64,000 bases of DNA, from the NCBI GenBank assembly GCA_037447655.1, contig JBBHKE010003190.1, forward strand, positions 365,424 to 429,423, written 5' to 3'. The notes beneath the pieces were generated by a model, which did no database searches, was not told the DNA's origin, and saw only the letters and a list, made by a program, of their open reading frames with translations. This document shows, piece after piece, positions 11,918 to 64,000 of this stretch; position 1 is the stretch's first letter; every line of letters starts with the position of its first letter. The position numbers were made by a program, and so were the translations under genes. This stretch comes from Zygnema cylindricum (taxonomy: Eukaryota > Streptophyta > Zygnematophyceae > Zygnematales > Zygnemataceae).

Positions 11918-12837
11918 TTAGTTGTTGTGGGAGTCATGCAAATGATCCCTGATGCGCGTGCTTCCCATGATAGTGACCATGCCCATTTTTGCCACCAAAT
12001 TCCCCGAGGAAATGCATGCAAAACAAAAAGGACATAGAGCCCGCATGGGAAATGAAGGCGAGGGGAGGTGAAAAGATACCCTATCCCCCCCTCTAAGGCT
12101 GATATCCCAATTTCCCCCCCTCTTAGTCAACCTTGACAAAGATATAAATTTACCCGCCCAATTCACAGTTCCCACAGAACTAAGGGCCTTGGGGTTGAGT
12201 GTGAGGTTTCCAAGAGGAGGAGATACATGTTGTATGCCAGCATTGGCTGCATCTGTCACAGACCAAGACAGGTTTTGGTGAGGATGACGGCGTGCAGTCT
12301 CAAGAGCAGGAAGTAGGGTTGGCAAAGTAAGTTGGATAGAAAGTGGGTTCGTCTTCAAATCCTCGAAGATGGTAAGGGGCTACATTGATCTGATTTTCCT
12401 TGATTCTCCGACCATCTTTTCCTTCCAAGGTAAAAACCCTTTTATTGGAAACGTCCACCACTTTTAAAATCACTCTCCCGGCAGAAATATCTAACATGTA
12501 TTTTTTTCTGCTGCATCCAATACACAAAGTCTTTTGGCATGAATCGCCATTGCCGAGTTACATAGTTCCCGCTCCTGGGTTGAGAATACCATAACCAATC
12601 CCGATGCTGCGCTGCTTGTAAATTCCCCATGGCGAGAGGCATCTCTCGGTGGAACACTTTGGCTTGGTCAGCGATGAGTTTCTCGACTGTCCCTTGATTA
12701 TCCATCTGTGGGAGGACCACTGCTTGGGCCAAAACAGCGCCGAGAAGGATGGGATGTCGTCCAAATAAAATAAAATAAGGGCTATAGGAGTGTAGAGAGG
12801 CTTGCCGGCTGAACCTGTATCCCATGGGAATCGAAGA
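11918..12837 (-). pseudogene. Ty3/gypsy integrase C-terminal part with PHD-like finger
   Basis: Minus-strand remnant of a gypsy integrase. From 12825 downward it reads GYRFSRQAS...SPYFILFGRHP, then a QHRDWLWY segment and the GPY/F-like region RFMPKDFVYW. After a frameshift near 12440-12530 it continues with RVILKVVDVS, LEGKDGRRIKENQIN and APYHL. Downstream, in another phase at about 12224-12272, comes CDRCSQCWHTTC, a PHD-finger core. The catalytic domain is missing because Cop1 is inserted at 12838. In an intact element it would integrate the cDNA, and the PHD module would probably read histone tails. Broken and not functional. Confidence 0.75.
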
Positions 12838-23960: not shown

Positions 23961-23973
23961 CTCCCCTTATTTT
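23961..23973 (-). other. Cop3 polypurine tract
   Basis: aaaataaggggag on the minus strand, directly between the gag-pol stop and the 3' LTR. This is the plus-strand DNA primer site. The same tract occurs in Cop4, Cop5, Cop6 and Cop9. Confidence 0.85.
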
Positions 23974-26900: not shown

Positions 26901-28332
26901 CAGTAAAGACTCCTTCCCTAGTGCTAGTGAAAAAACCCTTATCATCTAATACTGATGTAGAGATAAGGTTTTTGTTCAACTCCGGAATAAGAAATACATC
27001 GGAGAATGTTAATATGGATGTCTTTCCTTCAACTAACACTTTCAGATCTACCGATCCTACAAGAGTAGTGGTGACTATCCTCCCATCCCCGTACTCTATC
27101 TCTACGGTGGGAATCTTTCTTATCTTAGTGAACAGGTGTCTATCCTTACACATGTGCATTGAGGCACCTGAATCTATAATCCAGCATGCTTCACCTTTCA
27201 ATCCACCGTAAGCACATTTCTGCCTTCGTGGAATTTCAACCTCAGTTTTCGCCTCCAACTCCTCATCCAAAAGGAGCTTATCGTCCTCGTCCTCGGATTC
27301 CGCCTCAAGTACCTGTGTGACAAGGGCCTTTTTCTTTCCTCTCGGGGTACCACCGGTCTGCCCCTCCTTTAACCGAAGCTCGGTTAGCTTGGTGCACTCT
27401 GCCATATAGTGCCCAGGTTTCTTACAAAAATGACATAAACCTTTGGGAGCCCTTGGTTGGAACTCGCCAACCTGTTTTTCCCGCTCCCTACCCCCATAGT
27501 TTCTGACTGGTTTCCGGGAATCCTTGTTCTTCCAATCGGTCGCTGTTGCCAAGGCTTGGCCACTCTTTCCTCCCCTTCGGATCTCAATCGTATTCTCTCG
27601 AACGAGAATCATCCCTACCACTGAGTTCCATATCCACCTTGAGTCCGGCAAGTCCTGCGCACGGTTGACTATGTTCTCGAACTCATCAGGTAACTTCATT
27701 AGTAAACAGTTAACTTTTTCTTTTTCACTAAAAACTTTACCCGCACTCTCTAGCTCCATGAAGAGTGTAGCAAGCTCATTGCAAAAATCCAACATATTTC
27801 CCCCTTTGTATACATACTCCTTAACTTTCTGATCAGCCAACTGTTGTTGCTGAATCGTACCACTTCGGTACATCTCTATGAGAGCCATCCAAAGATCGGA
27901 TGCCCTCTCTACCTGCAAATGAGGACATGCAAGTCCTTGAGTGAGATGGCGTAGGATGAAGTGCTTTGCCGCCATATTGTTGAAGTCCCAGGTTTCAGTA
28001 TCATTCTCCTCGTTCCTCGGAATAGGTGACATGAATGCTAAACCAGTTGCTATTGGTGTGGTCGCCTCCTTCTCCTTTCCTTTGTCCACCACCTCTCCTT
28101 CCTTTGTTTCCTCCGTTGAAGGTGAATCCTCATTCCTGGTGAATCTGCTTCCTTTAAACCCTGGAGGAATTCCAAGACTTGATGGACGCCCCAATCGTCC
28201 ACTCACTATCCCCCAAAACCTTTTTTCGCATAGAGCTCCTATCATCATACTTTCCCAGTATATGAAGCCAGTTCCATTAAATATTGGTACCCTAGAGGGT
28301 GGGCCCATAACCTGAAACTCTGAGACCTCCAT
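23974..28332 (-). pseudogene. Cop3 gag-pol polyprotein, one nonsense codon
   Basis: Full-length Ty1/copia Gag-Pol in one phase, about 1450 codons. Counting from the LTR-encoded ATG at 28332: Gag core 9-290, CCHC knuckle C300-C303-H308-C313, protease DSG at 387-389, integrase zinc residues H519, H524, C553, C556, and integrase catalytic D584, D647, E683. The reverse transcriptase has YVDD at about 1122-1125, and the RNase H has the SDASY, MEAEYMA and FCDNQAAIA motifs. It ends KLKID just before the polypurine tract. The only break I find is TAG at 26212-26214, where relatives have TGG (Trp) in KRFWAEAMNCANY. Domain order PR-IN-RT-RH is diagnostic of Copia. A second ATG at 28308 lies in the primer site. 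Catalytic residues are intact, so this is the youngest and best preserved element here, but as read it ends after integrase. Confidence 0.93.
28298..28312 (-). other. Cop3 primer-binding site (half-tRNA type)
   Basis: GGTTATGGGCCCACC on the minus strand, beginning on the base after the 5' LTR end. It is complementary to nucleotides 25-39 (anticodon stem-loop) of plant initiator tRNA-Met and not to a tRNA 3' end. The ATG inside it is in frame with Gag. Confidence 0.85.
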
Positions 28333-34479: not shown

Positions 34480-37400
34480 GGTTATGGGCCCACCCTATAG
34501 GGTACCAATCTTTAATGGAACTGGCTTCATATACTGGGAAAGTATGATGATGGGAGCTCTATGCGAAAAAAGGTTTAAGGGGATAGTGAGTGGACGGTTG
34601 GGGCGTCCATCAAGTCTTGGAATTCCTCCAGGGTTTGGAGGAACCAGATTCACCAGGAAAGAGGACCCACCTTAACCGGAGGAAACAAAAAAAAGAGAGG
34701 TGGTGGACAAAGGAAAAGAGAAGGAGACGACCACACCAATAGCAATTGGTTCGACATTCATGTCACCTATTCCGAGGAATGAGGAGAATGATACTGAAAC
34801 CTGGGACTTCAACAATATGGCGGCAAAGCACTTCATCCTACGCCATCTCACTCAAGGACTTGCATGTCCTCATTTGCAGGTAGAAAGAGCATCTGATCTT
34901 TGGATGGCTCTCATAGAGATGAACCGAAGTGGTACGATTCAACAACAACAGTTGGCTGATCAGAAAGTTAAGGAGTATGTATACAAAGGGGGAAATATGT
35001 TGGATTTTTGCAATGAGCTTGCTACATCTTCATGGAGCTACAGAGTGCGGGAAAAGATTTTAGTGAAAAAGAAAAGGTTAACTGTTTACTGATGAAGTTA
35101 CCTGATGAGTTCGTGAACATAGTTTACCGTGTGCAGGACTTGCCTGACTCAAGGTGGATATGGAACTCAGTGGTAGGGATGCTTCTCGTTCAAGAGAATA
35201 CAATTGAGATCCGAAGGGGAGGAAAGAGTGGCCAAGCCTTGGCAACAACGACTGATTGGAGGAACAGGGATTCCCGAAAACCGGTCGGAAACTATGGGGG
35301 TAGGGAGCAGAAAAAACAGGCCGATGAGTTCGAACCAAGGGCTCCCAAAGGACTATGTCACTTTTGTAAGAAACCGGGGCACTATATGGCAGAGTGCACT
35401 AAGCTAACCGAGCTTCGGTTAAAGGAGGGGCAGACCAGTGGTACCCCGAGAGGAAAGAAAAAGGCCCTTGTCACACAGGTACTTGAGGGTGAATCCGAGG
35501 ACGAGGACGATGAGCTCTTTTTGGATGAGGAGTTGGAGGCGAAAAATGAGGTCGAAATTCCACGAAGGCAGAAATGTGCTTACGGTGGATTGAAAGGTGA
35601 AGCAGGCTGGATTATAGATTCAGGTGCCTCAATGCACATGTGTAAGGATAGACACCTGTTCACTAAGATAAGAAAGATTCCCACCGTAGAGATAGAGTAC
35701 GGGGATGGGAGGATAGTCACCAATACTCTTGTAGGATCGGTAGATCTAAAAGTGTTAGTAGAAGGAAAGACATCCATATTAACATTCTCCGATGTATTGT
35801 TTATTCCGGAGCTGAACAAAAATCTTATCTCTACATCAGTATTAGATGATAAGGGTTTTTTTACTAGCACTAGGGAAGGAGTCTTTACTGCTAGTTTTGA
35901 GGATGATGTCTATTTCATTGCTGAGAAAGGTAGCCATGGGATGTTTAGGCTGATCTTAAGTAATGAAAAGAAGAAACTTTATTATGCTGGTGTTTATGAT
36001 ATTATGATGTGGCATAAGAGGCTTGGGCATGTCAATCTAGATAAGTTAAGAGAGATGAAAAAGTTTGGAGTGGTGGAAGGGATTCAGTTCAGTGAGAGTG
36101 ATGATATAAGTGATTGTAGTGGATGTGCTCAAGGTAAAGCACACAGATTACCCTTTCCTAAGTCAGCCACCTATAAGGGAGAAAAAATTCTAGATCTAGT
36201 ACACACAGATATTTGGGGACCGGCTAAAGTGCCCTCACCGGGGGGGAAGAGATTTATGATGACTATAACTGATGATTGGTCTCGGTATTCCCGGGTATAT
36301 TTTTTGAAAAACAAGTCCGAAGCTGAGGATTGTTTTAGACAATATAAAGCATGGAGCCAAAAACTCCATGAAACTCCAATCAAGAGAGTAAGGAGTGACA
36401 ATGGTGGAGAGTATACTTCTAACCAGTTTGAGGATTTTCTGAGGGAAGATGGGGTTCAACACCAAAAGACAGTTCCAGAAAATCCTGAACAGAATGGGGT
36501 AGCTGAAAGGTTAAATAGAACACTAAGTGATAGTGCTAGAAGTATGTTGTCAGATAAAAAGATAGGGAAAAGGTTTTGGGCAGAAGCAATGAACTGTGCT
36601 AATTACCTCAAGAATAGAGTTCTTACTTCAGCTATAAGAGATCAAACACCTTATGAGAGATGGACAGGCCGGAAACCAGACTTATCTCACTTAAAGGTTT
36701 TTCGGCAGTCAAGTGTTCAGTCTAGATACTGATCGGTCCAAGTGGAAGCTAGATCCTAAAGGAAAACCAGGATACTTATTAGGATATGATGAAGATGTTA
36801 AAGGATATAGAGTTTATGATCTAAAAAGGGAACATATAATCTTAGTAAAGCATCTAGTAGTTATGGATGAAGGAAAGTCTGTGGATCCCTTCAAATATAC
36901 GAAGTCAGTAAAAATCAGATTTGAGTCAGAAAATTCCGATGACTTTGAGCTTCCTAACTATCCAGGTTTTAGAGAAGATGACATTCTTGCAGGAACAAAT
37001 CAGACCGAAAAGGACTCGGCTGAGGAAACTCCAGTGACAACTCTACTCGAAGCGGAAGACGTGGTGGAAATTGATTCGGAATCAAAGGATAGGGGAGAAG
37101 CCGAGTTTGTTCGAAAGAATCCACGAGAACCATCTATTCCAGCCTCAGATTTTGAGGGGGGGAGGAGAAGTAGCAAAAGACTGCAAGAAAAACAGGTTAA
37201 TAACAAGGTAACTAAACTATCTCATCAAGATGAACCTCAAACTTATGGAGAGGCGATGACTTGTCCAAAAAGAAACCGGTGGAAGACAACCATCAATGAG
37301 GAGATGGCTTCAATCATGGCAGCCGATACTTGGGAGCTGGTGGACTGTCCACCTAACCGAAAACCAATCGGTTGTAAGTGGGTTTTCAAACTAAAACTGA

Positions 37401-38817
37401 ACCCAGATAACACAATCGAGCGCTACAAGGCCAGATTAGTGGTATAGGGATTTACACAAAAGGAAGGAATTGACTACGAGGAAACCTTTGCCCCGGTGGT
37501 CAGATTTCCCTCCGTCCGCATACTTCTCAGTTTATCAGCGGCGGAAGACATGGAAGTGCACCAGATGGACATCAAAACAACCTTTTTGCATGGAGAATTG
37601 GAAGAGGAGATCTTCATGCGACAACTCGAAGGGTTTGTGGAAGAAGGAGAGGAGAGTAAGGTATGCCGGCTGATTAAATCTCTTTATGGTTTGAAACAGG
37701 CGCCTCGACAGTGGAATAAGAAGCTTGATGAGTTTCTTACCGGTCTAAGATATATTCGGATCAGCTCAGATCACTCAATCTTTGTTTTCGAAGATGAGGA
37801 AAGTTTTATATTTATTGCAATTTATGTTGATGATTTGCTTGTTTTAAGTAAATCAATGGAAAAAATTAATAAACTGAAAACCGATCTTAAGGGGAGATTT
37901 GAAATGAAAGATATGGGGGAAGCAAAATATATTTTGGGAATTCAAGTAGAGAGAGACCGAAAAAGGAAAATTATAAGATTGACTCAAAAGGAAGCAATAG
38001 GGAACATGCTTGAAAAATTTCAAATGGATAAAGCTAATAGTTGTACAACTCCAATGGAGTTGAAAAAAGGAAGTGAGGGGAGTGAGGAAGAAGGAGTCAT
38101 AGTCTTAGACGAGGAATTATCTTCGATGAACAGAAGTTCATGCAGACTATTCGTTACAGGCAAGTAGTGGGAAGTCTAATCTATTTTATGAATTGTACCC
38201 GGCCGGATTTAGCTGCAGCTGTAGGAGTGCTGAGTAGAAGTCTAAATGCTCCCACTAAGAAGGATTGGGAGGCAGCTAAGAGAGTCCTTAGATACTTGGT
38301 AGGAACTAGAGATCTATGGTTGCATTTGGGTGGGGAGAATACTGACATCACTACTTGGAGTGATGCCAGTTATGGTGATGCTCCGATGAGGAGATGTACT
38401 TCTGTATATGTATTATATGTGGGTGATGGGGCTTGCTGTTGGAGTTGCAAACAGCAAAAGGTTATTGCTCAGTCCACCATGGAGGCTGAGTATATGGCCT
38501 CTTGCTCTGCTGTAAAAGAATTGATGTGGGTAAAGTCTTTGCTTGGTGAGCTTCGTCACCTTAAGAGTGGTGTGCAGAAAATATTTTGTGATAATCAGGC
38601 AGCAATCGCTATTTCTGCCAATCCTAAACATCATTTTAAAGCCAAACACATGGACATCAGACTCAGCTTTGTTAGAGAGTAAGTAGAAAATAAATTAATC
38701 AGTTTAGAGTACCGACCAGATAGTGAGATGGTAGCAGATATGATGACCAAACCTGTGCCTTCCCCTAAGCTAATTTTCTGCAAGGAGAAGTGTGGTCTAA
38801 AATTAAAGATTGACAAG
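34460..38817 (+). pseudogene. Cop5 gag-pol, decayed
   Basis: Same polyprotein as Cop3 in the opposite orientation, all domains present: CCHC LCHFCKKPGHYMAEC at about 35355-35400, protease DSGAS at 35620, integrase HKRLGHV, HTDIWGP and SDNGGEYTS, RT YVDD at about 37826, and RNase H SDASYGD, MEAEYMAS and FCDNQAAIA. It is broken by TAA at 34673-34675, a frameshift between about 35030 and 35090, a frameshift near 36713, TAG at 37445-37447, a frameshift near 38140, and TAA at 38680-38682. The LTR-encoded ATG at 34460 is in frame with the primer-site ATG at 34484. Not functional as read. Confidence 0.92.
34480..34494 (+). other. Cop5 primer-binding site (half-tRNA type)
   Basis: GGTTATGGGCCCACC directly after the LTR, identical to Cop3. 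Confidence 0.85.
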
Positions 38818-38830
38818 AAAATAAGGGGAG
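38818..38830 (+). other. Cop5 polypurine tract
   Basis: aaaataaggggag between the end of pol and the 3' LTR. Confidence 0.85.
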
Positions 38831-39885
38831 TGTAGAAATTAATGGTCCATTTTAAGTATTTTCTAGGTCTAAATAGAAATATAGAAAGAAGCCGAGGCAG
38901 TCTACCTCTAACTTGTCTCTCCAACTCTCAAACTTGTCGCAGTCACTGAGAAATTGGAGAGGGAGCTAGAGCCATGGCTACCTAGGCTCTCCAGAAGTTT
39001 ACGGGGATTATATATTAGGGTTTATTTATTTAATTAAAGGTATGTGCCGGCGGCAGGATTTGATCCTTTGTACCTACCGGCCGGCAGACAGGATATAGCC
39101 GGTAGCCTTAGCCGTTAAGTCTAGCGGTAGTGTTACGTAGCATATAGTTTGATATGTATTTAAATATGTATACGTGCGATAAACCATTTAATTGAAATGA
39201 ATTACGAGATACATAGATCCAGTAATATATAATGTACGACTTACGGTACGGACACAAATCAGTACCGCGCATTTGTTTCATAAATGAAACAAATACCGCG
39301 CATGTATTTATTACAGCTACGATTAAAGCCGAATTTAATCGGACGACCGGAATTAGCGCCGAGATCGCGGAGGAAGATTTCGGCGGTTTGTGGCCATCGC
39401 CACATTGGATGACGCGTGGCGAAATTCTGTTGGATTGTGGAATCTCCGGAGATTATGGCACCGAATCCGGATTTGACATGTGTCGACATTTTGGCCATGT
39501 CGTACAATGTCCGTACATAAAGTACACCGGCAGCTGTACTTTTGCGTACGGAACTCAATTCTGATTGGTTTCGTACATCAGTAGATAGAGTCTGTGAGAG
39601 AGATAGGACTTAGAAAAATTAGAAGATAGGACCCCCTCTCCCAGAGAGCTTCTGTACAAAAGGTCAACTTTGACCCTCCATAACTTACTGCTCAGGGGAG
39701 CAAATTCAGAGATTCTTTTTGCTACCGACTCAGGGGAGTCTTGCCTTTACAGGGGTGGAGGTGGTCAGGGTTTTTGTCTGCTAGGGTGGCAGTTATTTTT
39801 GTTGGAACACAAAGGGGTCAGGATTATCCTAAAGGCTTCTTGGAAGCTGTCTATTCTGAGGACTTATGGAGGTCTCAAAGTTTCA
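38831..39885 (+). mobile_element. Cop5 3' LTR
   Basis: 1055 bp, TGTAGAAATTAATGG ... AAAGTTTCA, partner of 33428-34479 with visibly more differences than the Cop3 LTR pair (for example the first 80 bases). Cop5 is therefore older than Cop3. The right flank is ACATA. Confidence 0.95.
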
Positions 39886-41553: not shown

Positions 41554-41569
41554 TATCGACCACCGGATG

Positions 41570-41706
41570 ACCAACCGAGACCATTCACAAGCCGACGGTT
41601 TGGCTGAAAGGTGCGTACAGACTGTGAAGCGGTCACTGCGTAAATATGCTGTTGAAAAGGATTTAGGAGAGTTGGATAGAAGGGTGCTTTGGATTGCCAT
41701 GGTGTC
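41570..41706 (+). pseudogene. Ty3/gypsy integrase fragment
   Basis: Plus-strand SQADGLAERCVQTVKRSLRKYA and VEKDLGELDRRVLWIAM, the part of a gypsy integrase core around the catalytic Glu. It belongs to the same kind of element as the minus-strand remnant at 11918-12837. Sequence after 41706 no longer matches integrase. Confidence 0.7.
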
Positions 41707-43018
41707 AAGCTCGTGTTTCTTTTCGGCAAACCTTTATTTACCCAAGATCTTCGGGACCCTTTCTACCTGTACGGACCTCAGCGTACGGCAAAGAAGGTAC
41801 ACGAAACCGGACCAGATTAAGGGATTTCTTGAACTGAACGGAAAGCATTTTATTTCGCGCCTAACAGAGGCCGGAAAGCCAAGTTATTCCGCTTCAAAGA
41901 TTTCAGTTCTGTTACATGCAGCTTGTTGTCGCTTGACCTTTTGGGGGTCACATTGTGGAACGCCACGTTACTCCTCGGATAGTGTTTTAGATTTGGCTGT
42001 CTTATGTCAGGAGGACTTTAGTTCAGATCCAACTGACTTTCTGTCCATTAATTAGATCAGGTCAAAATCTGGAGTGCAGGTGTCATTTTGAGTACTTTGT
42101 CTTATTGAAATGGAACAAACTTTGACTTTCAGCTGGAAATCTAGCCGCGGCTGGAAGCACAACTTTTTGCCTTAAGCGTAGTACAACTTAATTTGTCTTT
42201 TGTCAGTTCGATAGCATTTGCTTCCCGCTGATTAGTTCCTTGTATTGCTTTGATTTTTTGGATCGGAAGTGGACAAACTTGGTTGTATAAGGCGCTTGGA
42301 GCCGAAGGAGACAGGTTGCTTTTTAGTACTGTCTCGTGTGAAAAACCTCAGAGAAATTCCAAACAAACATTTTTTTGGAGAATCTTTGTTGTGCTTGATT
42401 GCTTGACTCTATTGCCATCTTGGTTTGGATTTGTCTTGTTTGAAGATCGTAGTTCGGGCGGGTAGTTGGCACTATCAATCTTTTTGGGCGATCTTGACTT
42501 TTTGCTATTGAAACCGAGAAGAGTCCAGTGTATTCCGATCTGCGGAAACCGAGTGGTTAAGGAGAATCGTACCTGTCTTTGGTGCCACTGGGAGATATTT
42601 CGTCTTCCCTTTGTGTCATCTTGGCTTTCTAGGGTATGTTGAGCTTGCTTTGCTATAAATCTTCATTCTATCTTTTATTAAGTTTTCTGGGGCAAGGTGA
42701 TATTGTTGAATCTGAAACAGCTAATCATTTCTATTTTATTATTTTCGCGTGGAAGTTCATTTGTCCTCCGCCGCTAGTTCTCTTTGGATTTTGCTGTGTT
42801 CCCTCCGAAATTGGTTTCTTGCATCTTGGGTTCTAAAACACTTGGTTCTGAGGGTACAAAAGTTAGACTTCCACTGGATCAGCACAGTATTGAAAAGCAA
42901 CATCCTTGTCTACTTGGATTACAGGAGATAGGAGCTTTGACTCAAGAATCTCTCTTAGTGGAAGGGGGTTAGATTTTCTCATTTTCTATTACTTCCTCTT
43001 TCTAGTGGTTACCATCCG
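41707..43018. other. Unassigned stretch before the gag-like region
   Basis: No coding domain recognised. It is T-rich from 42100 on. Its position between an integrase fragment and a gag start makes an LTR plus leader of the gypsy-like element plausible, but I could not identify LTR ends or a primer site. Confidence 0.35.
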
Positions 43019-45255
43019 ATGGGAGGAGGAGAGGCTCAGGATAGGGGAACCCCCAGCCTTACGCCTGAGGAGAGAGGTAGGCAAGAGGGGTCTGCCTCTG
43101 GGAGGGGTTCTCCCAGGTTCGAGGAAGCAGTCTAAGGAGCTCCCATGTTTGAATCCCCACCCAAAGGACAGGCCGAGGAAAACGTTTCTCCGACTCCTCC
43201 CGTCCCCACCCCCGAACAGTTTCGTTCTCTAGCCGTAGCGGCCCAGGCCCAAGCTGAAGAGAAAAGGAAAATTTCTCCCACTTCCCGACATAAGCGGTTG
43301 GCCCATAGGGATCTAGTCCCCGGGCATCTGCCGGAGATTGGATTCCACACCCGATCCAAGATTCCCAGGGTCGAGATTCCAATAGACCCTGCGGTGTTAG
43401 CCGATCCTCGTCGTCCTGGTCGTAAGGAACTTCTTGCTCTGCATGATCCCCATGAGCTGAAGGTGAAAAATGAGTTGGTTCAACGAGTGGCCCGTGTCGA
43501 TCGAGCTCGGGTAGTTAGACCCGTGGGAGGAGTGGTGGAAATTTTGAGCAGTTCCTCTGAAAGTAGCTCATCACCATCTGAACAGAGACTACCTCGGAGA
43601 GCCCTGTAATTTTGTCTGCCGCAATCTTTCTTTCAGGACACATCTACCAGCAGGCCAGCCAGAGGACGTACCACCTCTCGATCTCGTCTCGGAGAAGGGG
43701 GCAGCAGGAAGGACTTTCCAGATCCTTGGAAGGGGAAGCGGTTCGACCACCGTGATAATAAAGATAGATTTGCTCGTATTTCCAAAGAGGAAACCTTCCC
43801 AGCACCCGCTCCCGCCTCGACTGGAGGGCATACCTCAGCAATCCCAAGGGTTAACCTCGTGTGGGGTTTAGGCAATCCAAACCAACTGATTCCGAGGTTC
43901 CAGATGTAGGCCGGGGGAGATCATTTCCCAAGGATCCCACAGATCGCCCTTTTGGAGGGCTATGGCGACCCGAACCCACTGATCTCGAGGCGCCAGGTTT
44001 AGAGGTGGGAGATCTAAATGAGGTTTTGAGAAGTGCTAAGGAGTTGGTAAAGAAGTTAAGATCTAAAGGTTGGGCTAGAACGGGGGCCGGACTTGTCGAA
44101 ATAGATTGGGAGGCTTTAGAGGAAGAAAGGAAGAAATTATAGGAACATGAATTGCGGTTGATAAAGGACGCACGACTAAGGTCCGGAGGATCTCTTAGGG
44201 AGCAGGTCTCTACTTCTCCAATACTTAATCCTTACATCTATGATCCGACAAGGGAAGCCGCTCAAGTTCCCAAGTCTAACCCTAAGAAGCCTCCATCTGG
44301 GAATCCACAAGAACTTCCTCTTTTGCGGGGAACGGAAGGAACAGCAGGACCCAATGAAAAGGGTTTGGGTGCAGATCTACCTTCTGAGTTTGCTTCTATA
44401 TCTCGGGAGCATTCTACCTTTGTATCAGTGGATATCTCCTCCGTCGTGGAGGCTTTGGTGGAGTTACGGCCAGACGAAGAAACCACATCCCTTTGAGACC
44501 AGCTACTCCTCCTCCGCCACCTTCCACACAATTTCCTGATCCTACCTCCTCTCCTCCTCCGCTCAGTTCATCTCTAGCCACGGGACGTACAGCAGATCCC
44601 AAAGATATTCCTTTAGGGTCCCCAGGGTTGATAGTTAAATCACTTGCCACTCCTGCGCGACCAAAAACTTCCATTTTCGCCTATTCTCCACCTCACCGGC
44701 GTTCTCAATCATCTAGTTCTGAACCACTCCCTTCTCCTCTTTCTAGGCGCAATGCTAGGGGGCAAACCCCGTATCCCAAGCAAGGTACTTTGCCATCCGC
44801 GTCTTCTTCGTCATTCAAGAGAATACCTCCAAACAGATTGCATCTTCAAATCCCACCAGAAAGGAGAAGTCGGCGATCGCGAAAACCTTCCGCACATGAT
44901 AGGAGCATTACCTGGGGGATACATTTACCCCCCAACCATCTTTTCAGAACCAGGAACTTCCTCAGTGGGTGGGAGAGTGGCCATTTCACAAGCAGCTACT
45001 TTTGTCGGAGAAGTAGGCGACACCGAATCCGAAAACGAAGAGTTAGGGGTGATATCATCGGTGCAGTTTGTCTGTCCCACTAGACCTCACTCTCCCCAAT
45101 TCACTAACCTTGCGGAGGAGGAGAAAGAGATGGGGGACAACCGAATATTTACGGGGGATAATTCCGGGATTGCATTCTCAGATTTCGAATTGTTGTGGAA
45201 TTTCTTCACTCAGTCCGAAATCAACAATTATGGGGGGGGGGGTTATTCCGGATGA
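43019..45255 (+). pseudogene. Gag-like N-terminal region of the methyltransferase-bearing retroelement
   Basis: A likely start ATG at 43019 (MGGGEAQDRGTPSLTPEERG) is in phase with 43145-43609 and interrupted by TAA at 43133. Low-complexity Pro/Ser/Arg/Glu-rich protein continues in several phases: RSRLGEGGSRKDFPDPWKGK at about 43670, a charged helical part near 43990-44170 (AKELVKKLRSK and EALEEERKKL), and Ser/Pro-rich stretches 44493-44900. A more ordered segment FSDFELLWNFFTQSEINNY lies near 45180-45235. A G-run at 45231-45242 shifts the frame. Function is inferred only from the downstream CCHC and protease. G+C is higher than in the Copia elements. Confidence 0.5.
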
Positions 45256-46183
45256 CATCGAGACTACCCTCTTCCCCATGATGGTCACCTATCTCTCTGG
45301 GGGTGCTTTGGCGGATTAGAAGGAGTGGTAACATCTCCTGATGGCTCATAGCATCAAAATCTCCGACTGGACTCTCCATGCCGCAGTTTTACAAGCGGAA
45401 GCCAACTTGGCTTCTGCGGCAGCCGCTCCTGTCTCTCACGCCTTTACCGAGGACATGAAGCTACATGCCCAAGGTCGAGCCTACGTTAACCAACTGCAAG
45501 CTATTCAGGCAGCCCGGGCTGCCACTAGAATGATCGCCAACCCCATCCGCTACACCACACTCCTCGACGCCTAAAGACTTTTGTATAATGAGAGAAATGA
45601 GTCCGCCATCAAAGAATTCACGGACTTTCAATGCTTGAAGAATGAGACGCCTTAGACCCTTTTCAATAGACTCTCCAGTCTTTGCCAGAAAACCAAGCTG
45701 TCAACTATTGATCTTCTAGCAATGGCAACCAAGTACTTTATCGCTGTGCGAAATTCGTTCGGACCCACCGGGTAGGTAGCTCTGGATAACAAGATCGCAG
45801 GGCAGACAATCCAAGACATTAAACCCTCGGCTAAAAAAATCTCCTTGGCAGCCATAAAACTGTACGACCACTTCGTCAACAGTGAGGCTCGAGAAAAGGT
45901 TGTCACCGGCAAAGCCAGAGCAAATTTCGCCGGGTTTGCCAAAATAACCTCTTTGAGCAGTGAAAAGCAAAATGAACTCCAAGCTTTGCGGAGGCTTAAA
46001 GGAAAACAGGCAGATGATAGCGGATCAGAACCCGCCATGGGGACGGATGACAAGATGATTCTGTATAATTGTCTGAACTGTCAACAGAACAGCCACGGAT
46101 GGAAACGGTGCCCCCGGAAACTCAAACCGAAACTCGCTCTAAAACAGAATGAACGGGAAAAAGAAAGGGCAGAAAGAACCTAG
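45256..46183 (+). pseudogene. Capsid-like region with CCHC zinc knuckle
   Basis: One phase with three internal stops (45572, about 45653, about 45773). It has an Ala-rich helical segment (LHAAVLQAEANLASAAAA), then FTDFQCLKNETP, AIKLYDHFVNSEARE, and the knuckle CLNCQQNSHGWKRC (C-x2-C-x4-H-x4-C) at about 46072-46113, followed by a basic tail. The order is that of a retrotransposon capsid and nucleocapsid. Domain call by motif only. Confidence 0.6.
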
Positions 46184-47390
46184 AAGCAAAACGAAAGGAA
46201 ACTAAGAAGGGGATCAGAGGACAAATCACCAGTAACAAAGGACAATTACCGCCCAACTCGCGGATTCGAAACGTCCAAAATGTCTGAAGCTCAGTTCAGA
46301 CTAATAAAACTTCCAAAATTGGATGACGCTAAAATTTCTAATGAGTTACGGAGCAAATACACTACCGAGGGTTTCAAATTTGAGGCATGCGGTTTAATCG
46401 GACAAAAGGAGGGCAATGTTTCCGAAAGAATGGGGTGCCAAAAGAGATGATGCAATACGCCCTGTTTACTGGTGAAGGGGGAGCTGCCGTGAATCCTCTC
46501 CCTCTTCTGCTCCTTTACCTGTGGGGACGCCGCACAAAGGAGGAACCCGAACGAACAACGACAGGGCGAGCACCACGTACACCGGAAGAGATAATTCAAC
46601 ATCAAAGCCAGCAATTGGCTGCGATGGCTTCAGAATTAGCCGCCTTACGTTTAAATTCTCCCTCTGGCCAGCTGCTCATAATCTCCAACGGAGAAAACAA
46701 GAGCTATTACAAAAGCTAGGGGAGCTTGAACAAGAAGCCACGGCCGCTCAGGATGATGACGACATTATGGGAAGGGATATGACGCCTCCAAGAGTTAACT
46801 ATGCCCAAACTTTTCAGTCAGGAGCCAGGAATGTGGGAGTGGGGGATAATCGCAGATCACTCCGCAACACCACATCGAAGCAAAGAAGGGACACACAAAG
46901 ACTGGCACCAAGAGACCATAACAGAAAGATCAAAGGACCATTGTCATTCACTCCTCGGGCAGTAATACTGAATAACGACACCGGCGTAGGAATAAAACCT
47001 ACAAATCCTCCCCCACTAGCTGTGAAGAAACTGCCGCTCTGATTCGAAAAATAGAAGACCAACAAACAAGGGGAGACAGAGAAACAGGCAAAGGAGGAAG
47101 AGAAGCGGAAAACCCAGGACAGGTTTGAACGGTACATGGCAAAACGCCCGGACGATGATACACCAGCGACACCTCGCACGCCAGGTTGGGATGCCGAAGA
47201 GGAGGAAGCAACGGGGGGGGAGCAGTAGAAAACGGAGGAGCCGAGTACCCCCATTTCACCCACTAATGCTCTGCCTCTTTCCTCCAAACCAGCTGTTATG
47301 TTAGTTCTGCACCTAATGCCTTACGCCCTCACACATGTCAAATATCTGGCCTCATCCCACAATCTGCCAGAAGATATCATTATTTAGGCA
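46184..47390 (+). pseudogene. Linker region between gag-like and protease parts
   Basis: Short overlapping phases with coiled-coil-like character (IIQHQSQQLAAMASELAALR; QELLQKLGELEQEATAAQ) and a charged region to 47220. Several stops. I recognise no catalytic domain. It is probably part of the same polyprotein, because phases keep changing without a non-coding gap. Confidence 0.4.
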
Positions 47391-47855
47391 TTGGGAGAGG
47401 AAATCCACTTGGGAAAGGAGAAAGTAGAGCTGGCAGATCGATCCAGTTCCGTCTTTTTATCGGGTGAACCTAAGACCCCTATGATGGATAGGGATTACAA
47501 GGCATTATCGGTGGCTCTTATCCTCAACCGGACCGAAAATTTCAAGCTCAACGGATACGGGGGCTATCAGGATGTAGTGGTCGATACTGGTGCGCTACCA
47601 AATTTAATAACAACTTTTGCTTTACAGCAGATGCCTGAGGAACCACAACCTGAAATCTTACCAAGCGACATCTGCTTGAGTACAGTTAGCAGTGGAAGTC
47701 AACCGGTCCATGGAATCATCAAGGCTATGGAAATTGAATTCTTGGATGATGCGGGTCAACGAGTCTGGATCCAGCTCCCATTCCTAATGGTGGAAGGGAA
47801 GCAATTCAAGATTCTGCTGGGGATGCAACTTGGACCCGACTTAATATGGAGTTGA
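47391..47855 (+). pseudogene. Retropepsin-like aspartic protease
   Basis: Contains VVVDTGALPNLIT at about 47577-47615 (the D-T-G-A active site), a flexible flap-like stretch, LPFLMVEGKQFKILLG and MQLGPDLIWS, typical of clan AA proteases of Ty3/gypsy elements. It would process Gag-Pol. The phase is open over the protease, but an upstream in-frame stop (near 47386) shows that the polyprotein is broken. It lies directly upstream of the methyltransferase motifs. Confidence 0.7.
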
Positions 47856-48097
47856 GTGTGTGGAAGGAGTAGTTCAAGGTGAGGGACCCCGAGGAGCTCG
47901 AAGGGACCCAGGTGGTGGTTTCCTTGGGATTATGGAATAGGGAAAAGATAAATGCGCCTGTGTTCGGTTGGTACCCTGTATATGCCACATCCTCTCCGGC
48001 ATAACTTTTTGCTTGCTCACCTGATATTGCCGACGTGATATAGCAATTCCCTATTTCCAAGCGGTAGGAAGAGGGATACCAAGACCGATTACCTCAA

Positions 48098-48771
48098 ATG
48101 GTAGCACTTCCACGGGGAGTGGAACAGGCTTTTACAGCTATAACACCAAATTATATATTTTCAACTTTTCGGTCAGAATCTTCGGAAATCCTGTTCTTAG
48201 ATGAGAAGTTTAACCAACAGGTGGTGTCACTGTCAATCCTAGATTCCGGACTCCAGATTGTATCATTATTTTCAGGAATCAACACTGATTTGGAAGCGGT
48301 TTTGAATGCAGGATACATAGTGGAGTTGTATACGGTTGTGGAAATATCACCCGAAGCCCGAGCCGTCAGCGAGCATCGCCTACACCAACTTCACCAATTA
48401 TATCCTCAACAGCTCCTAGTGTTGGCAATCTCCCAAGCTCACCAAAGCCTACCTCTGAATGTGGAAAATATCATGACGGGACAGTTGCCAGTCTGGGAAG
48501 GGTAGATTTGTTGGTAGCATGATGGCCTTGTAAGGATACTCCCTTGCAGGACAAGGAAAAGGACATGCAGACCGAAGAAGTATAACTTTCTTTCACATGA
48601 TACAAGTAATATCATAGATACAACATCTCTAGGACACACCAGTGGGGTATGTTTTGGAGAATGTCCACCCGGGGATGACGGGCGACAACATGTAGCGGAC
48701 AGTTAGAAACAGGTCATCCAGATTTTAGGAATCCCGTTGGTTTTCGATGCGGCACTGATAGGATCGCAGGG
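48098..48771 (+). pseudogene. Retroelement-borne C5-cytosine DNA methyltransferase, decayed
   Basis: Four ordered motifs of a C5-cytosine methyltransferase, in shifting phases. Motif I is QIVSLFSGI (48254-48280), followed by LNAGYIVELYTVVEISPEARAV and HRLHQLHQLYPQQL, the usual helix and acidic cofactor-binding strand. Motif IV is VDLLVA*WWPCK (48502-48538), with the Pro-Cys that carries the catalytic cysteine. Motif VI is PVGYVLENVHPG (48639-48674). Motif VIII-like VFDAALIGSQ lies at about 48740-48771, cut off by Cop6. In working form it would transfer methyl groups from S-adenosylmethionine to cytosine. Order and spacing leave little doubt on family, although individual motifs are in different phases. 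It is a pseudogene, with its C-terminal part (target recognition domain end, motifs IX-X) missing. Confidence 0.8.
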
Positions 48772-51700
48772 CCCACCGAGTAAGGCCCAGTCTTGCTATC
48801 CCTCCAAGGTTTGGGGGAAGCAATTTTGGTAGGAAACCAAATCCACCGCCATCAGAGGACTCCAACGACGGAGAAAGCATCGTGATGGAAAAGGGGAAAG
48901 AAAAAGAGAAAACCACACGTATAACAACCAGATCTGCTTTCATGTCTTCTATTCCGAGGAATGAGGAGAATGACATCGATACATGGGACTACAACAACAT
49001 GGCGGCCAAGCACTTTGTCCTGCGTCATCTCACACAAAGACTTGCATGTCCTCATTTGCAGCTGGAAACGGCATCATATCTGTGGGATGCGCTTATAGAG
49101 ATATACCGTAGCGGTACTATTCAGGAATAGAAGCTAGCAGATGAAAGGATCAATGGATACTTTCAGAAAAGAGAGAAGATGCTCGAATTTTGCAATGAGC
49201 TGGCTATACTCTTCATGGAGTTAGAGTGTGCCGGAAAAGTAGAAACTGAGAAGAAAAAGGTTCACTGCTTATTTATGAAACTACCCGATGAGTATGAGAA
49301 CATTGTGAACTGGGTACAAGATCTGCCGGACTCCAGGTGGATATGGAATTCGGTAGTTGGTATGATCCTCGTCCTAGAGAATACAATCGAAATCCGGAGG
49401 GGAGTTAAGAGTAGACAAGCTTTGGCGGCCAGAGCAAGTTGGAGAAACAAAGAGTCACGGAAACTGCTTGGAAGTCATGGAGGGGAAGACGAGAAACATC
49501 AATCTGATGAGCTCGGAACAAGGGGACCAAAGAGGCTTTGTCATTTTTGCAAGAAACCCGGGCATTACATGGCGGAATGTACCAAAATGACCGAGCTTCA
49601 AATTAAAGAGGGGCAAACCGAGGGTCAGCCACGAGGGAAGAAAAAGGAACTTGTCACACAGGTACTCGAGGAGGAATCCGATGAAGAAGACGACGAACTT
49701 CTTTTGGATCAGGAGTTGGAGGTAAAGACAGAAGCCGAAATCCCACGGAAGCAGAAATGTGCTTTCGGTGGATTAAAAGGTGAAGGAGGTTGGATTGTGA
49801 ATTCAGGTTCCTCCATTCACATGTGCAAGGATAAGCATCTGTTCACTAAGCTGAGAAAGATCCCTACAGTAGAGATTGAATATGGGGATGGGAGGGTAGT
49901 TACCAGTACATATGTAGGATCGGAAGATCAGAAAGTCCTAGTGGAGGGAAAAACCTCAATAGTTACGTCATTCGTTGTATTGTTTATTCGGGAGTTAAAC
50001 AGAAAACTTATCTCTACATCTGTATTAGATGATAAAAGATTTGAAACTAGCACCAGAAAAGGAGTTTTTACAGCTAGTTTTGAGGAAGATGTATATCTCA
50101 CTGCTGAGAAAGGTAGCGAAGGAATGTTTAGGCTTGCTTTAAGTAATGAAAACTCAGACTTTAATATGCTGGTGTCAATGATATTATGTTGTGGCATAAG
50201 AGACTTTGGCATGTGAATCTAGAAAAGCTTAAAGGAATGAAAAAGATGGGAGTAGTTGAAGGGATACGTTTTGGGGAAAATGAGAATTTAAGTGATTGCA
50301 GTGGGTGTGGTTAGGGTAAAGCACACAGATTACTGTTACCAAAGGAAGCAACTTATAAAGGAGAAAAAGTTCTTGATTTGGTACACACGGACATTTGGGG
50401 ACCTGCAAGAGTGCTAACACCCGGAGGAAAACGATTTATGCTAACCATTACCGATGAGTGGTCTCGGTACTCTTGGGTATACTTTATGAAAACAAAACAG
50501 AAACTTCGGAGTATTTCAAACAATATAAATCATGGGCCGAGAAGGTTCACGAGACCTCAATAAAGAGAGTAAGAAATGACAACGGAGGGGAATATACCTC
50601 CAATCAGTTTGAGGAGTTCTTAAGAGAGGACGGTGTGCAACATCAAAAGATAGTTCTGGAAAATCAAGAACAAAATGGTGTTGCCGAGAGATTGAATAGG
50701 ACACTGAATTATAGTGCCCGGAGTATGTTGTCAGATAAAAGGATAGGAAAAAGATTTTGGGCCGAAGCTATGAACTGTGCTAATTATTTGAGAAATAAAG
50801 TACTTACTTGGCAGTGAAAGACCAAACTCCATATGAGAAATGGACCGGCCGAAATCCAAATCTATCTCACTTAAAGGTTTTCAGTAGTAAAGTCCTCAGT
50901 TTAGATACAGATAGATCAAACTGGAAACTAGATCCCAAAGGGAAACCCGAATACTTATTAGGATATGATGAGGATGTAAAAGGGTATAGAGTGTATGATC
51001 TAAAAAGAGAAGATTTAATTCTAGTAAAGCACCTGGTAGCTATGGATGAAGGGAAGTCGGTAGATCCCTTTAAATCCTCAAAGTCAGTCAGAATCAAATT
51101 TGAGTCAGACAATTCTGATGACTTTTACCTTTCTAACTATTCCGGTCTCCAAAAAGACAATATTCTTGCAGGCTTAAAATAGACCGAGAAAGACTTGGAG
51201 ACAATGGTGACACCTATACTTGAAGCCGAAGACGTGGTGGAAATGGATATGGATCCTAAGGACAGGGGAGAAGCCATGGTGATTTGAAAAAATCCACGGG
51301 AACTATCTATTCCGGCCACAAATTTTGAGGGAGGAAGAAGAAGCAACAAACGCCTTCAAGAGAAACAAGTTAACAACAAGGTAACCAAACTTTCTCACCT
51401 GGATGAACCTCAAACATATGGAGTGGAAATGAACTACCCGGTGAGAAACCGGTGGAAGACGGCCATTAATGAAAAAATGGCTTCAATCATGGCGGTTGAC
51501 ACTTAGGAGCTGGTGGACTGTCCACTTGATCGCAAACTAATTCGATGTAGGTGGGTTTTCAAACTAAAACTGAATCCTGACAATACTATCGAGCGGTATA
51601 AGGCCCGGTTAGTGGCCAAAGGTTTTACTCAGAAAGAGAGAATAGACTACAAGAAAACCTTTGCTTCGGTCGTCAAATTTCCCTTGGTCCAGATACTTCT

Positions 51701-54111: not shown

Positions 54112-57100
54112 CTTTGTTGAGTTGAAAGCAAAAAGGAGGGTGTCAGTTATGTTGAACGTAGAGGGAAAAACTGTGAAAAGGGTCTTGGAAGATGTGTTAC
54201 ACGTCCCTGCTTTTCAAAGAAATATTTTTTTAACGTAAGTGGTAGAAAAAGAAGGTTTTAAAACTATATCTGAGAATGGAAAGAAAACAGTGAATAAGAA
54301 TGGGAAAATAACTGTAGAAGGATTTGCTGGAGGAAACAATTTGTATCGGTTGACTCTTGCAAATGATAATGACAATGATGTTATGTACTCAAGTGTAATC
54401 AGTGATTGTGATTTATGGCATAAATGTTTAGGAAATGTGATTCATGATAGATTAAAAAAAATGGTAAATCAAATAATGGTGGAAGGTGTAAATATTAGTC
54501 AAAAACGAGCATCAAATGTATATGATGGTTGTGCAATGGGAAAAAATTATAAGTTGCCTTTCCCTTCGCAAACTTATTATAGAAATAACATGGTGCTAGA
54601 ACTAATATATCCAGATGTATGGGGGCCATCTATGTATCTTTTGTGGGAGGTGCTAAGTTTATGCTTACCTTTACTGATGACTAAAGTAGATTTACTACAG
54701 TTTATTTTCTGAAAAGTATGAATGAAGTCTTTGCAAAATTCAAAGAGTATAAGGCTTGGGTTGAAAATCTGCATGAGAGAAAGATAGCAGAATTCAGATC
54801 TGATAATGGAGGGGAGTACATTTCTAATGAGTTTGCATAATTCCTAAAATTGCTTTAAATCTCATTTCAGCTAACCGTTCCTTATTCTTCAGAACAAAAT
54901 GGTGTTTGAGAGACGATGAATAAGACCATATCAGAGTGTGCTAGGAAAATGATGGTTGATATATACATATATTTCAAATTTTGGGCAGAGGCTATGAATT
55001 GTGTAGCTTATGTGAGAAACAAGCTAGAAACAAAGGCAGTAACAGATATAACTATGTATAAATTGTGGACGAGACAAAAACCAGCTGTAAGTCGCTTCAA
55101 AGTTTTTGGAAATAAGATATTTATGCTAGATAATGATCCACACAAATGGAAATTAGAGCCAAAAGGCATACCGGGGATATTTCTAGGGTATGATGATCAT
55201 GCCAAGGGTTATAAAGTATATGACATTAAAAGAAATAGAGTCTTGGTAGCCGAAAACATCATATTGAAAGACGAGGGAAGATGAGTGGATGTATTTAGTA
55301 AGCATATAGATGAAAAAAATAATAGAAGTGTTGATTATATCCATTTAGAGGAAATTACTATGTTTTTAAAAAAAAATATTGAGAATCCATCTACATAAAC
55401 TCAAAGTGACTTGCAATCATCTTCTCTACTAGAAACACGACGTGTTATGCCTGAAAGATTTGCCGACTGTTTTCTACCACAAGCCAAAATTGAATCACAA
55501 GAAAAATCACATATATCAAGGAGGAGGACCCTACCATCTATACCAGCGACATAATTTCCAGGTGGAGTTAGGCAAAGTGCACGACTCAGGGGAGAAAATT
55601 CAGCCTTTGCTCACTCAACACACACACAGAAGAGCCTTTTAAGTTGACAAAAACTTTTTCGAGTAATGAAAGGGTATAGTGGTTGGAAACGGTCAATGAA
55701 GATTTGAAGTCTATCATGGAGGCCCAAACATGGGATATGGTGGATCTTCCTCCAAGAAGAAAGGCAATTAAAATTAAATGGGTGTTAAATTAAAATTGAA
55801 CCCAGGTAATACCATACACAAGTATATGGCTCACTTGGTTGCTAAAGAATATAATCAAAAAGAGGGGATAGATTATGAAGAAAGTTTTTCACCAGTTATA
55901 AGGTTTCCATCTGTCCGCATCTTATTTACATTAGTTGCCATAGAGGATTTTGACATCAAACAAATAGATGTCAAAATTGCCTTTTTGCATGGTGATTTAG
56001 ATGTTATATGAAGCAGCCAGAGGATTATGAGGAAGCAAAAACAAAAATTCTTCTGTGCACACTTTTAAAATCTTTGTATGGCCTAAAACAGGCCTATAGG
56101 CAATGGAACTGAAAGTTACATAAGTTCTTGACAGGATTAGGATTTACTAGAAAATGCTCAGATCGTTCAATATATGTGATGTGAAGTGAAAATCTTGATG
56201 ATGTGATATTCATTGCTGTGTAGGTTGATGATTTGCTGCTAATTAGTACGAGCAAAAATGGAATTGTTAGATTAAAATACGCTCTTTATTCACAGTAAGA
56301 ATTGAAGGATTTATGTGAGGCAAAATACATCTTTGGAATACAAGTTGAAAGAGATAGAGAAAATAAAATCATTAGGCTAACTGAGAAAGAAGCGATAGGA
56401 AACATGTTAGAAAAATTTGGCTTGGCTGATGCTAAAGGTTGTGCAACTCCTATGGAGTATAAGCAAAAATTTGAATGAATGGAGCATGAGTTTCGAGTCA
56501 TAATAGACAAGGAACTCAGTGCAGAAGAGCAAAAATTTATGTCCCAAATACCCTATAGACAAGTACCAGGAAGTATGATTTACTTCATGAATTCCAATAG
56601 ACCCGATATAGCTGCAGCTGTTGGTGTGTTGAGTAGAATTTTGCAAAATCCACGAAAGAGTGATAATGAGGCAGCTAAAGGGTCTTAAGATATCTTGTTG
56701 GGACCAGAAATCTTTGGCTTACTTTGGAATGGGACAAGGTTAGCATTAATACTTGGAGTGATGCTAACTATGGTGATGTGCCTAGTAGGAAGTCTACAAC
56801 TGGGTATGTCATTCAGATTGGAAGTGGAACATGTAGTTGGAGAAGTAAACTCCAAAAAGTCACGACACAATTGACTATAGAAAGCGAATACATGGTTGCG
56901 AGCGCAGCATTGAAAGAGCTGCTTTGGATTAAGGCATTTCTTCAAAAATTGGGGTTTACACAACAAAGAACACAAATTAATGTGGTGCGACAATCAAGCA
57001 ATCATTTGTGTGGATACAAACCCAAGTCACCATTTTAAGATTAAGCATATGGACATTCGGCTACATTTAGTACGAGAAAGAATGTTTGCAAGAGTGGTCA

Positions 57101-63206: not shown

Positions 63207-63211
63207 AAAAC

Positions 63212-64000
63212 GGTATTCGAAGATGTGTTATATGTCTTTGCATTTAAAATAATTTTTTTCTCTACGTCAGTGGTAGAGAAGAAAGGTTTTAAAACTATAT
63301 ATGAGAAATGTAAGAAAACAGTAAGTAAAAATGGGAAAAGAGTTGAATAGGGATTTGCTGGAGGCAACAACTTGTACCGGCTGAGTTTTGCAAATGATTA
63401 TGAGAATGATGTTATGTACTCCAGTGTTATCGTGATTGTGATTTATGGCATAAATGTTTAGGACATGTGAATTATAATAGATTAAAAAAGATGGTAAATC
63501 AAAAAATGGTGGAAAGTCTAAAAATTAGTCAAAAACTAACGTCAAATGTATGTGATGGTTGTGCAATGGGAAAAGTTCATAAGTTGAATTTCCCTTTGCA
63601 AACTGATCATAGAAGTAGCAGGGTGCTAGAACTAATATATTTAGATGTATGGGGGTCATCCAGGTATCCATCTGTGGGAGGTACTAAGTTTATGTTTACC
63701 TTTACTGATGACTATAGTAGATTTACTACAGTTTATATTTTAAAAAGTAAGAATGAAACTTTGTAAAATTTAAATAGTATAACCCTTGGGTTGAAAATCT
63801 GCATGGGAGAAAGATAGCAGAATTCAGATCTGATAACGGAGGGGAGCACATTTCTAATGAGTTTGCAAAATTCCTAAAATTTCATGGAATCTCACGTCAG
63901 CTATCCGTTCCTTATTCTCCGGAAAAAAACGGTGTTTCAGATAGGAAGAATAAGACCATATCATAGTGTGCTAAGACAATGATGGCTGATATGGACATAA
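63212..64000 (+). pseudogene. Cop8 pol continuation, pre-integrase and integrase
   Basis: Resumes the family R polyprotein: EDVLYVFAF, VVEKKGFKTIYEK, pre-integrase DLWHKCLGHVNYNRLKKMV and CDGCAMGKVHKL, then integrase LDVWGSSRYPSVGG (catalytic Asp kept), FTFTDDYSRFTTVYI and SDNGGEHIS in another phase near 63831. Stops are present. It runs off the right edge, so the RT part and the 3' LTR lie outside the window. Confidence 0.8.

Follow-up and report, generated by a model that had tools for sequence, protein, structure and literature searches.

The occurrence of a DNA cytosine methyltransferase (DNMT) directly behind a retroviral-type protease in the genome of the streptophyte alga Zygnema cylindricum raises the question whether the enzyme belongs to a retrotransposon and, if so, how it is produced, what it might do and how such an element enters the chromosome. 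The locus lies within a stretch of 64,000 nucleotides from contig JBBHKE010003190.1, hereafter called the window, to which all positions without contig name refer. We regard it as quite probable that the window harbours a dead copy of a Ty3/Gypsy element whose Pol polyprotein starts with a Dnmt3-type DNMT and is made by readthrough of a TAG codon, and that the cDNA of this element is methylated and integrated by its DDE integrase from a circle opened at a palindrome. The domain order, the collinearity of the copies, their number, the purifying selection on the DNMT, the Dnmt3-like fold of a relative and the conserved TAG-CAATTC form the observed part of this reading.

A methyltransferase at the start of a Ty3/Gypsy pol gene

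The decayed element occupies positions 41703-48785 of the plus strand and has been cut short by the insertion of a Copia-type element. It begins with the repeat A1 (41703..42886), which represents its 5' end, starts with TGTCAAGCTCG and carries a TATA-like sequence, GGGTACAAAAG, near its end. The body of the element (43237..48785) is collinear with another genomic copy, L031, at 84% identity (blastn). It contains, all on the plus strand, a gag-like region with broken frames (44311..46435) and a CCHC zinc knuckle at 46070, an aspartic protease of the retropepsin type (47214..48040) with the DTGA motif at 47583, and a truncated and disabled Dnmt3-type DNMT as the first part of pol (48044..48785). 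The gag-like region and the protease were located by tblastn with the respective frames of the open copy L021, to which they align in order (E 3.6e-106 for the protease), and the zinc knuckle was supported by a motif scan. That gag, CCHC, protease and DNMT belong to one element, which had been presumed in a preliminary description of the locus, is now established by the collinearity with L031.

The methyltransferase motifs noticed there are all present on the plus strand and in the proposed order, with LFSGI of motif I at 48266, WPC of motif IV at 48523, LENV of motif VI at 48654 and the motif VIII-like FDAALIGSQ just before 48772. The reading also follows the protease as directly as had been described, being separated from it by one TAG codon (48041..48043), which together with the adjoining CAATTC (48041-48049) represents a possible readthrough stop. 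Positions 48044-48769 match residues 1-242 of the L021 Pol, i.e. about the first half of its DNMT domain, with 46.8% identity over 248 columns (tblastn, E 2.6e-46, 175 bits); 200 shuffled versions of 47861-48786 did not exceed 22.3 bits. In-frame stops, frame changes and the truncation inside the DNMT bear out that this copy is broken. The similarity to the Gypsy element ends at 48786, and the Copia-type element starts at 48789. The pol stretch that begins here comprises 48044-48785, and the sequence beyond 48786 belongs to the inserted element. Comparison with the copies L021-L032 revealed no reverse transcriptase (RT) of the Gypsy element downstream of the DNMT in the window, because the Copia-type element cuts it at 48786. 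The broken DNMT pieces gave no DNMT match in Pfam, the 145-residue piece from 48068-48505 matching no family at all and the piece from 48289-48522 only the unrelated DUF3558 below the cut-off. The protease of the window matched Asp_protease_2 below the cut-off, and no Pfam match was obtained for the scanned gag frames.

The genome from which the window comes (352,776,454 bases in 2,689 contigs) was searched with the 145-residue piece, and 150 of 1,018 candidates were scored. All 150 matched, with a weakest E of 6.5e-36; one of them was the window itself, which leaves at least 149 related places, a lower bound with the remaining candidates as unconfirmed copies. Identity to the piece amounted to 69-78% at 13 places and to 51-65% at the rest, apart from one partial match at 74%. 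The copy L021 (C1374:22500-32499) comprises a gag-like frame of 716, a protease frame of 279 and a pol frame of 1,520 amino acids, the latter lying in the same frame as the protease after a single stop. The expected relationship to the family DNA_methylase (PF00145), missed by the broken pieces of the window, is found in this open Pol (8.2e-13, residues 70-249), followed by RVT_1 (1.3e-28), RNase H (6.5e-36), the zinc-binding domain of integrases (6.6e-15), rve (6.1e-12) and a C-terminal PHD finger (0.0044). The same domains occur in the 1,525-residue pol frame of L022, with the PHD finger at 2.4e-4; these two PHD matches are below the Pfam cut-off, which is passed by the relatives P0008 and P0013. 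Both open pol frames (1,520-1,525 codons) thus read DNMT, RT, RNase H, DDE integrase and PHD finger. They unite a Dnmt3-type DNMT with RT, RNase H and rve integrase in one Pol frame, as in DNMT-encoding Ty3/Gypsy elements, and the order protease, RT, RNase H and integrase is that of Ty3/Gypsy. Intact copies with protease, DNMT and RT in a single frame had been envisaged; DNMT and RT indeed share one, and the protease lies in the same frame, parted from them by one TAG. Among the 32 loci L021-L052, 28 contain segments of both DNMT and RT, the DNMT always being first, and no RT segment was found in L027, L028, L032 and L045. The genome also contains a second DNMT-Gypsy family, represented by L053 (C1344:88500-92500). 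A single open frame of 2,395 codons spans all of L053 and encodes, in this order, CCHC, protease, DNMT (with WECQ as motif IV) and RT.

The codon right before the DNMT-Pol reading is TAG in 28 of the loci L021-L052, and CAATTC follows this position in 31 of the 32. The sequence TAG-CAA-TT is similar to the leaky stop known from tobacco mosaic virus. Since decay would have given mixed stops, we infer from the conserved TAG and this likeness that the DNMT-containing Pol is produced by readthrough.

The methyltransferase, its relatives and its possible role

The DNMT of the element is under purifying selection. Its best sequence and structure matches are the catalytic domains of DNMT3A and DNMT3B, to which the fold of a relative is also most similar, and in the profile search DNMT3-type proteins reached 82 bits versus 29 bits for DNMT2. 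The motif order is not permuted, as in the DNMT3 catalytic domain, and PCQ is present in 14 of 15 open copies. The likeness to DNMT3A/DNMT3B concerns motif order and fold, whereas identity in the structure alignments is about 22-28% and the DNMT of the element sits inside a polyprotein. It also lacks PWWP and ADD, which are domains of the animal DNMT3A/3B. Chains of DNMT1 or CMT did not appear in the profile and fold match lists, although such lists are no proof of absence. Among 54 matches no canonical host Dnmt3 was recognised; hence, a single capture is not claimed. The constraint and the Dnmt3 fold suggest that the enzyme, which would be packaged as part of Pol, methylates the element's own cDNA before integration, most likely at CG. 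Methylation of cDNA by a retroelement DNMT has been proposed previously (PMC5890265, Discussion).

A protein search with residues 1-500 of the L021 Pol identified 17 proteins, among them KFL_009030040 of Klebsormidium nitens, MNEG_11595 of Monoraphidium neglectum and QJQ45_005750 of Haematococcus lacustris. The K. nitens protein (P0011; E 2.6e-49, 42% identity over 49% of the query) makes the comparison with the retroelement DNMTs reported in 2018, drawn in the preliminary description, an apt one. Of the 1,211 proteins that reached E <= 1e-30 in a second search, with an RT-integrase query, 120 were considered; 118 of these were new and formed with the 17 a set of 135 proteins. The DNMT lies before the RT in 16 and after it in 63 of them, 5 have a DNMT without RT and 51 show no DNMT, some of the latter starting just before the RT, so that a DNMT in another frame is possible there. 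DNMT-less proteins were listed for K. nitens (P0126, P0174) and Closterium (P0109, P0151, P0180) as well. Named hosts with the DNMT before the RT are K. nitens and Closterium NIES-54 and NIES-53, and those with the DNMT after the RT are Monoraphidium, Pleodorina starrii, with one strong match and a weak one of 21 bits, and Haematococcus, with weak matches of 21 and 31 bits. P0022 bears the name Chrzof1, taken to stand for Chromochloris zofingiensis. A quick RT tree, built from 61 chosen rows, groups the proteins with the DNMT after the RT (3 label changes) and scatters those with the DNMT before it (11 changes). The DNMT tree comprises 43 rows, and the 19 before-RT rows, P0011 among them, all fall to the same side of one branch (96*). 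The DNMT before the RT is likely the older order, with a rooting on three animal proteins only. Judged from the few named hosts, this order in the family of the window would also suggest a streptophyte alga as host. Regarding the C-terminal ends, P0013 of Monoraphidium contains a Tudor-like domain behind its PHD finger (residues 2352-2407, below the cut-off) and chromodomains are listed for P0146 and P0186, which together make up a set of chromatin-reading tails.

Repeats, ends and a possible route of integration

Downstream of pol, L027 and L028 have a 1.2-kb repeat A flanked on either side by a 287-bp repeat B, and A1 of the window, the only repeat that its copy retains, is 85-86% identical to the A repeats at this place. 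Searching the genome with each repeat gave at least 41 matching places in either case, with 40 of 1,403 candidates scored for A and 40 of 85 for B. By coordinates, three complete copies (C1607, C2046, C1243) have the layout A1-DNMT-B1-A2-B2, i.e. A-coding-B-A-B, and B-A-B was also found in C47, C1304, C1365, C605, C1701 and C2468, giving nine such loci. All 12 copies read have 2 nt between B1 and A2 (C1607, C2046, C1243, C47, C1304, C1365, C605, C1592, C1701, C1220, C1665, C2468). The seven A2/B2 joints read (C1607, C2046, C1243, C47, C1211, C1155, C605) vary by a few bases, which age alone could explain. A has a TATA box about 30 nt from its end, and in the 21 copies whose pol end is readable, B1 comes after a hairpin-like stretch and a run of purines, which commonly reads AAGAGGGGGGG.

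The inner B/A joint represents a conserved palindrome around CA-GC-TG, GCTCGACA-GC-TGTCAAGC. In 13 of the 21 copies the joint GGCACGCTCGACA-GC-TGTCAAGC occurs together with the start of A2, 241-331 nt behind pol and with 0-3 mismatches, compared with 6 to 8 mismatches at best in shuffles of the same stretches. Seven further copies (L021, L022, L023, L026, L029, L031, L038) have the left half of the joint, exact in five and with one mismatch in two, followed by sequence unlike A, and neither half was found in L052. The joint is identical between subfamilies whose synonymous RT sites are saturated, so that it is probably under constraint.

At the outer ends, 9 of 12 copies have TG as the first bases of A1 (TGTC in 8), and CA closes B in all 11 read (GACA in 10). 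The terminal repeats themselves are permuted with respect to the identical LTRs of Ty3/Gypsy elements. An exact 4-bp target duplication flanks three of six two-ended copies, namely C2046 (GTAC), C1243 (AAGG) and C1783 (ATTG); mismatched end pairs agreed in none of 115 cases. The ends of C1304, C1783 and C544 were paired by contig position, which is less sure than the pairing in C1607, C2046 and C1243. The flanks of the copy at C1783:83793-101194 look by eye like the integrase gene of another copy, which would make this copy, with its ATTG duplication, a nested insertion into its own kind.

Taken together, the TG...CA ends, the 4-bp duplications and the palindrome point to the insertion of a circularly permuted cDNA by an integrase rather than by tyrosine recombination. 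As a polypurine tract precedes B and a TATA box is placed close to the end of A, B-GC-A would resemble a U3 region up to the transcription start, and from this placement the cDNA should read BA-coding-BA, with B-GC-A as the long repeat. This DNA would be circularised with two repeats per circle, and the DDE integrase would cut the circle at the palindrome within the repeat. A cut after each CA would leave recessed CA-3'OH ends with a 5' overhang of 2 nt. Recessed CA ends are the substrate form of retroviral-type integrases. Opening a two-repeat circle in this way would give A-coding-B-A-B with a 4-bp target duplication, which matches the genomic copies, and copies with a single B might come from a one-repeat circle, from linear cDNA cut at both palindromes or from later recombination between B1 and B2. 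In its widest form we hold the proposal tentatively and at somewhat less than even odds, namely that a widespread green-algal Ty3/Gypsy lineage integrates via internally opened circular cDNA, with a methyltransferase supplied by stop readthrough marking this cDNA on the way. The retroviral 'circle junction' model was discarded long ago, and the lineage would, if the proposal is true, be its working natural version.

Alternatives, known systems and neighbouring elements

That the DNMT piece derives from a host Dnmt3 gene or retro-pseudogene and lies beside Gypsy debris by chance could have been suspected from the window, where the copy is broken, cut off by the Copia-type element and not followed by an RT. 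This explanation is refuted by the open copies L021 and L022, which hold DNMT and RT in one frame, and it conflicts with the invariable order of the two domains in the 28 loci that retain both, the other four loci having no RT segment, and with the same order in proteins of K. nitens and Closterium; we give it practically no credence. Harder to dismiss, though rather unlikely, is an action of the DNMT on RNA or on host DNA, silencing rival elements or slowing the element's own spread, instead of on element cDNA. RNA methylation by DNMTs of LINE elements and a benefit of slower transposition were discussed in the 2018 paper, which also found the K. nitens domain without activity in yeast (PMC5890265). 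Profile and fold, however, are nearest to the DNA-methylating DNMT3A/3B, with DNMT2 far lower, and the location inside Pol would fit a cDNA substrate.

Regarding integration, a tyrosine recombinase supplied in trans might act on a circle as proposed for DIRS/PAT elements, and A-coding-B-A-B is indeed the layout of PAT-like split direct repeats. The authors of the K. nitens study saw DIRS-like repeats there, too, and called the layout 'the same as that of a DIRS retrotransposon' (PMC5890265, Fig. 4 legend), and half of the two-ended Zygnema copies are without target duplication. However, the element has a DDE integrase, and no tyrosine recombinase (PF00589) was detected in the scanned gag, protease and pol frames of L021, L022 and L026. 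Together with the TG...CA ends and the 4-bp duplications in the other half of the copies, which DIRS1-like integration does not produce (PMC3266345), this renders a recombinase clearly improbable. Even less credible is an ordinary LTR element whose LTR is A-B, with a left LTR that lost B and an extra B placed before the right LTR by later rearrangement. A2-B2 alone does start with TG and end with CA, but B precedes none of 12 A1 starts (five of which were chosen as being without listed adjacent B, and 11 of which were scored for ends), the end of A1 meets the leader and not B in five copies, the polypurine tract lies before B1 and not before A2, and the B1/A2 spacing is constant. Independent rearrangements would not recur alike, which makes them unlikely in view of this constant layout.

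The preferred reading, i.e. readthrough, cDNA methylation and integrase-mediated insertion of an opened circle, has to accommodate several observations that weigh against it. A sense codon occupies the TAG position in L027, L028, L031 and L052 (4 of 32 loci). The circle is deduced from the end structure, and recombination between B1 and B2 might account for copies with a single B. No target duplication was found in C1607, C544 and C1304, the first of which has certain end pairing, and the candidate primer site at the end of A, TGGATCAGCAC, was matched to no tRNA. The Gypsy DNMT of K. nitens gave no methylation in yeast, a result considered inconclusive by its authors because human DNMT3B failed as well (PMC5890265). 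The CpG observed/expected ratio of the DNMT-Gypsy family is 0.62-0.72, a mild depletion compared with 0.50 in two Copia-type copies from the window and with 0.90 for the second DNMT-Gypsy family; such values argue against a heavy methylation-driven decay of the copies. C-to-T differences between the pol genes of L021 and L022 amount to 17 of 394 at CG versus 47 of 1,953 elsewhere. CpG depletion was rejected as a sign of methylation, being weak and unspecific.

The kind of element is already known from KnitGypsy-Dnmt3 of K. nitens, published in 2018, with which the Zygnema element shares the Ty3/Gypsy domains, the Dnmt3-type DNMT in the Pol frame before the RT (P0011), the purifying selection and repeats described as DIRS-like (PMC5890265). 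The Zygnema Pol differs in ending with a PHD finger, a word that does not occur in the main text of that article, P0011 being partial. The TG...CA ends, 4-bp duplications, palindrome and TAG are described here from Zygnema DNA. SymbioDIRS-Dnmt3 of Symbiodinium likewise combines a Dnmt3 in Pol with split repeats A-coding-B-A-B, but it has a tyrosine recombinase (PMC5890265) in place of the DDE integrase and the target duplications (3 of 6 copies) of the Zygnema element. PAT and DIRS1-like elements resemble the latter in the split direct repeats and the proposed circular intermediate, respectively (PMC4157794, PMC3266345), and differ by a Dam-like rather than a C5 methyltransferase; the Zygnema element, in turn, has 4-bp duplications and no recombinase in the frames scanned. 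Among the chlorophyte proteins with a related DNMT, MNEG_11595 and PLESTB_000982200 (Pleodorina) also share RT, integrase and PHD finger, but their DNMT follows the RT, in MNEG_11595 between RNase H and integrase, and in QJQ45_005750 of Haematococcus no RT was found within the protein. REM1 of Chlamydomonas is another green-algal Ty3/Gypsy element, with PHD finger and chromodomain, for which we know of no DNMT. A remnant of its integrase was reported in reverse frame (PMC2774666). Methylase-coding Gypsy/DIRS elements have been stated for green algae and charophytes (PMC6338049), and DNMT3 in 'LTR Copia and DIRS' elements for streptophytes and dinoflagellates (PMC12344493). The latter source thus assigns the streptophyte DNMT elements to 'LTR Copia'; the domains in the Zygnema copies and in P0011 are those of Gypsy.

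The Copia-type element that interrupts the Gypsy copy and is foreign to it extends on the plus strand from 48789 to about 53176, with Pol_BBD and RVT_2 above the Pfam cut-off and a weak Retrotran_gag_2 match below it. It is 77-78% identical to two further stretches of the window, 23801-28179 and 34613-38992 (blastn), the three copies having similar limits, and no flanking repeat pair was seen around it in the self-comparison of the window. A1 of the Gypsy copy abuts an integrase fragment of another copy (41555..41701, plus strand; Pol residues 1249-1297), and a further fragment with the C-terminal part of the integrase and the PHD end of Pol (residues 1295-1520) lies at 12153..12831 on the minus strand (both tblastn), i.e. 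on the opposite strand and 29 kb apart. The end of the latter at 12831 was checked as right-end partner for the target duplication of the window copy and rejected; the right end of this copy is lost. A direct repeat of about 795 bp with 86% identity links 54176-54969 and 63207-63999. No RNA families at gathering score and no tRNAs were found in the window.

Compared with the open-licence literature, the Zygnema case adds the spread of DNMT-Gypsy elements including chlorophytes, the two domain orders, the PHD end, the conserved TAG, a second DNMT-Gypsy family and, above all, integrase-type ends on DIRS-like repeats. These findings suggest that the capture of DNMTs by Gypsy elements reaches beyond Klebsormidium and characterises a large green-algal lineage, in which two domain orders occur. 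The end structure offers a testable route from a DDE integrase to DIRS-like repeats, and hence bears on the origin of such repeats and on retroelement circles as integration substrates. Finally, the many copies in Zygnema provide an abundant system for asking what a transposon gains from carrying its own methyltransferase.
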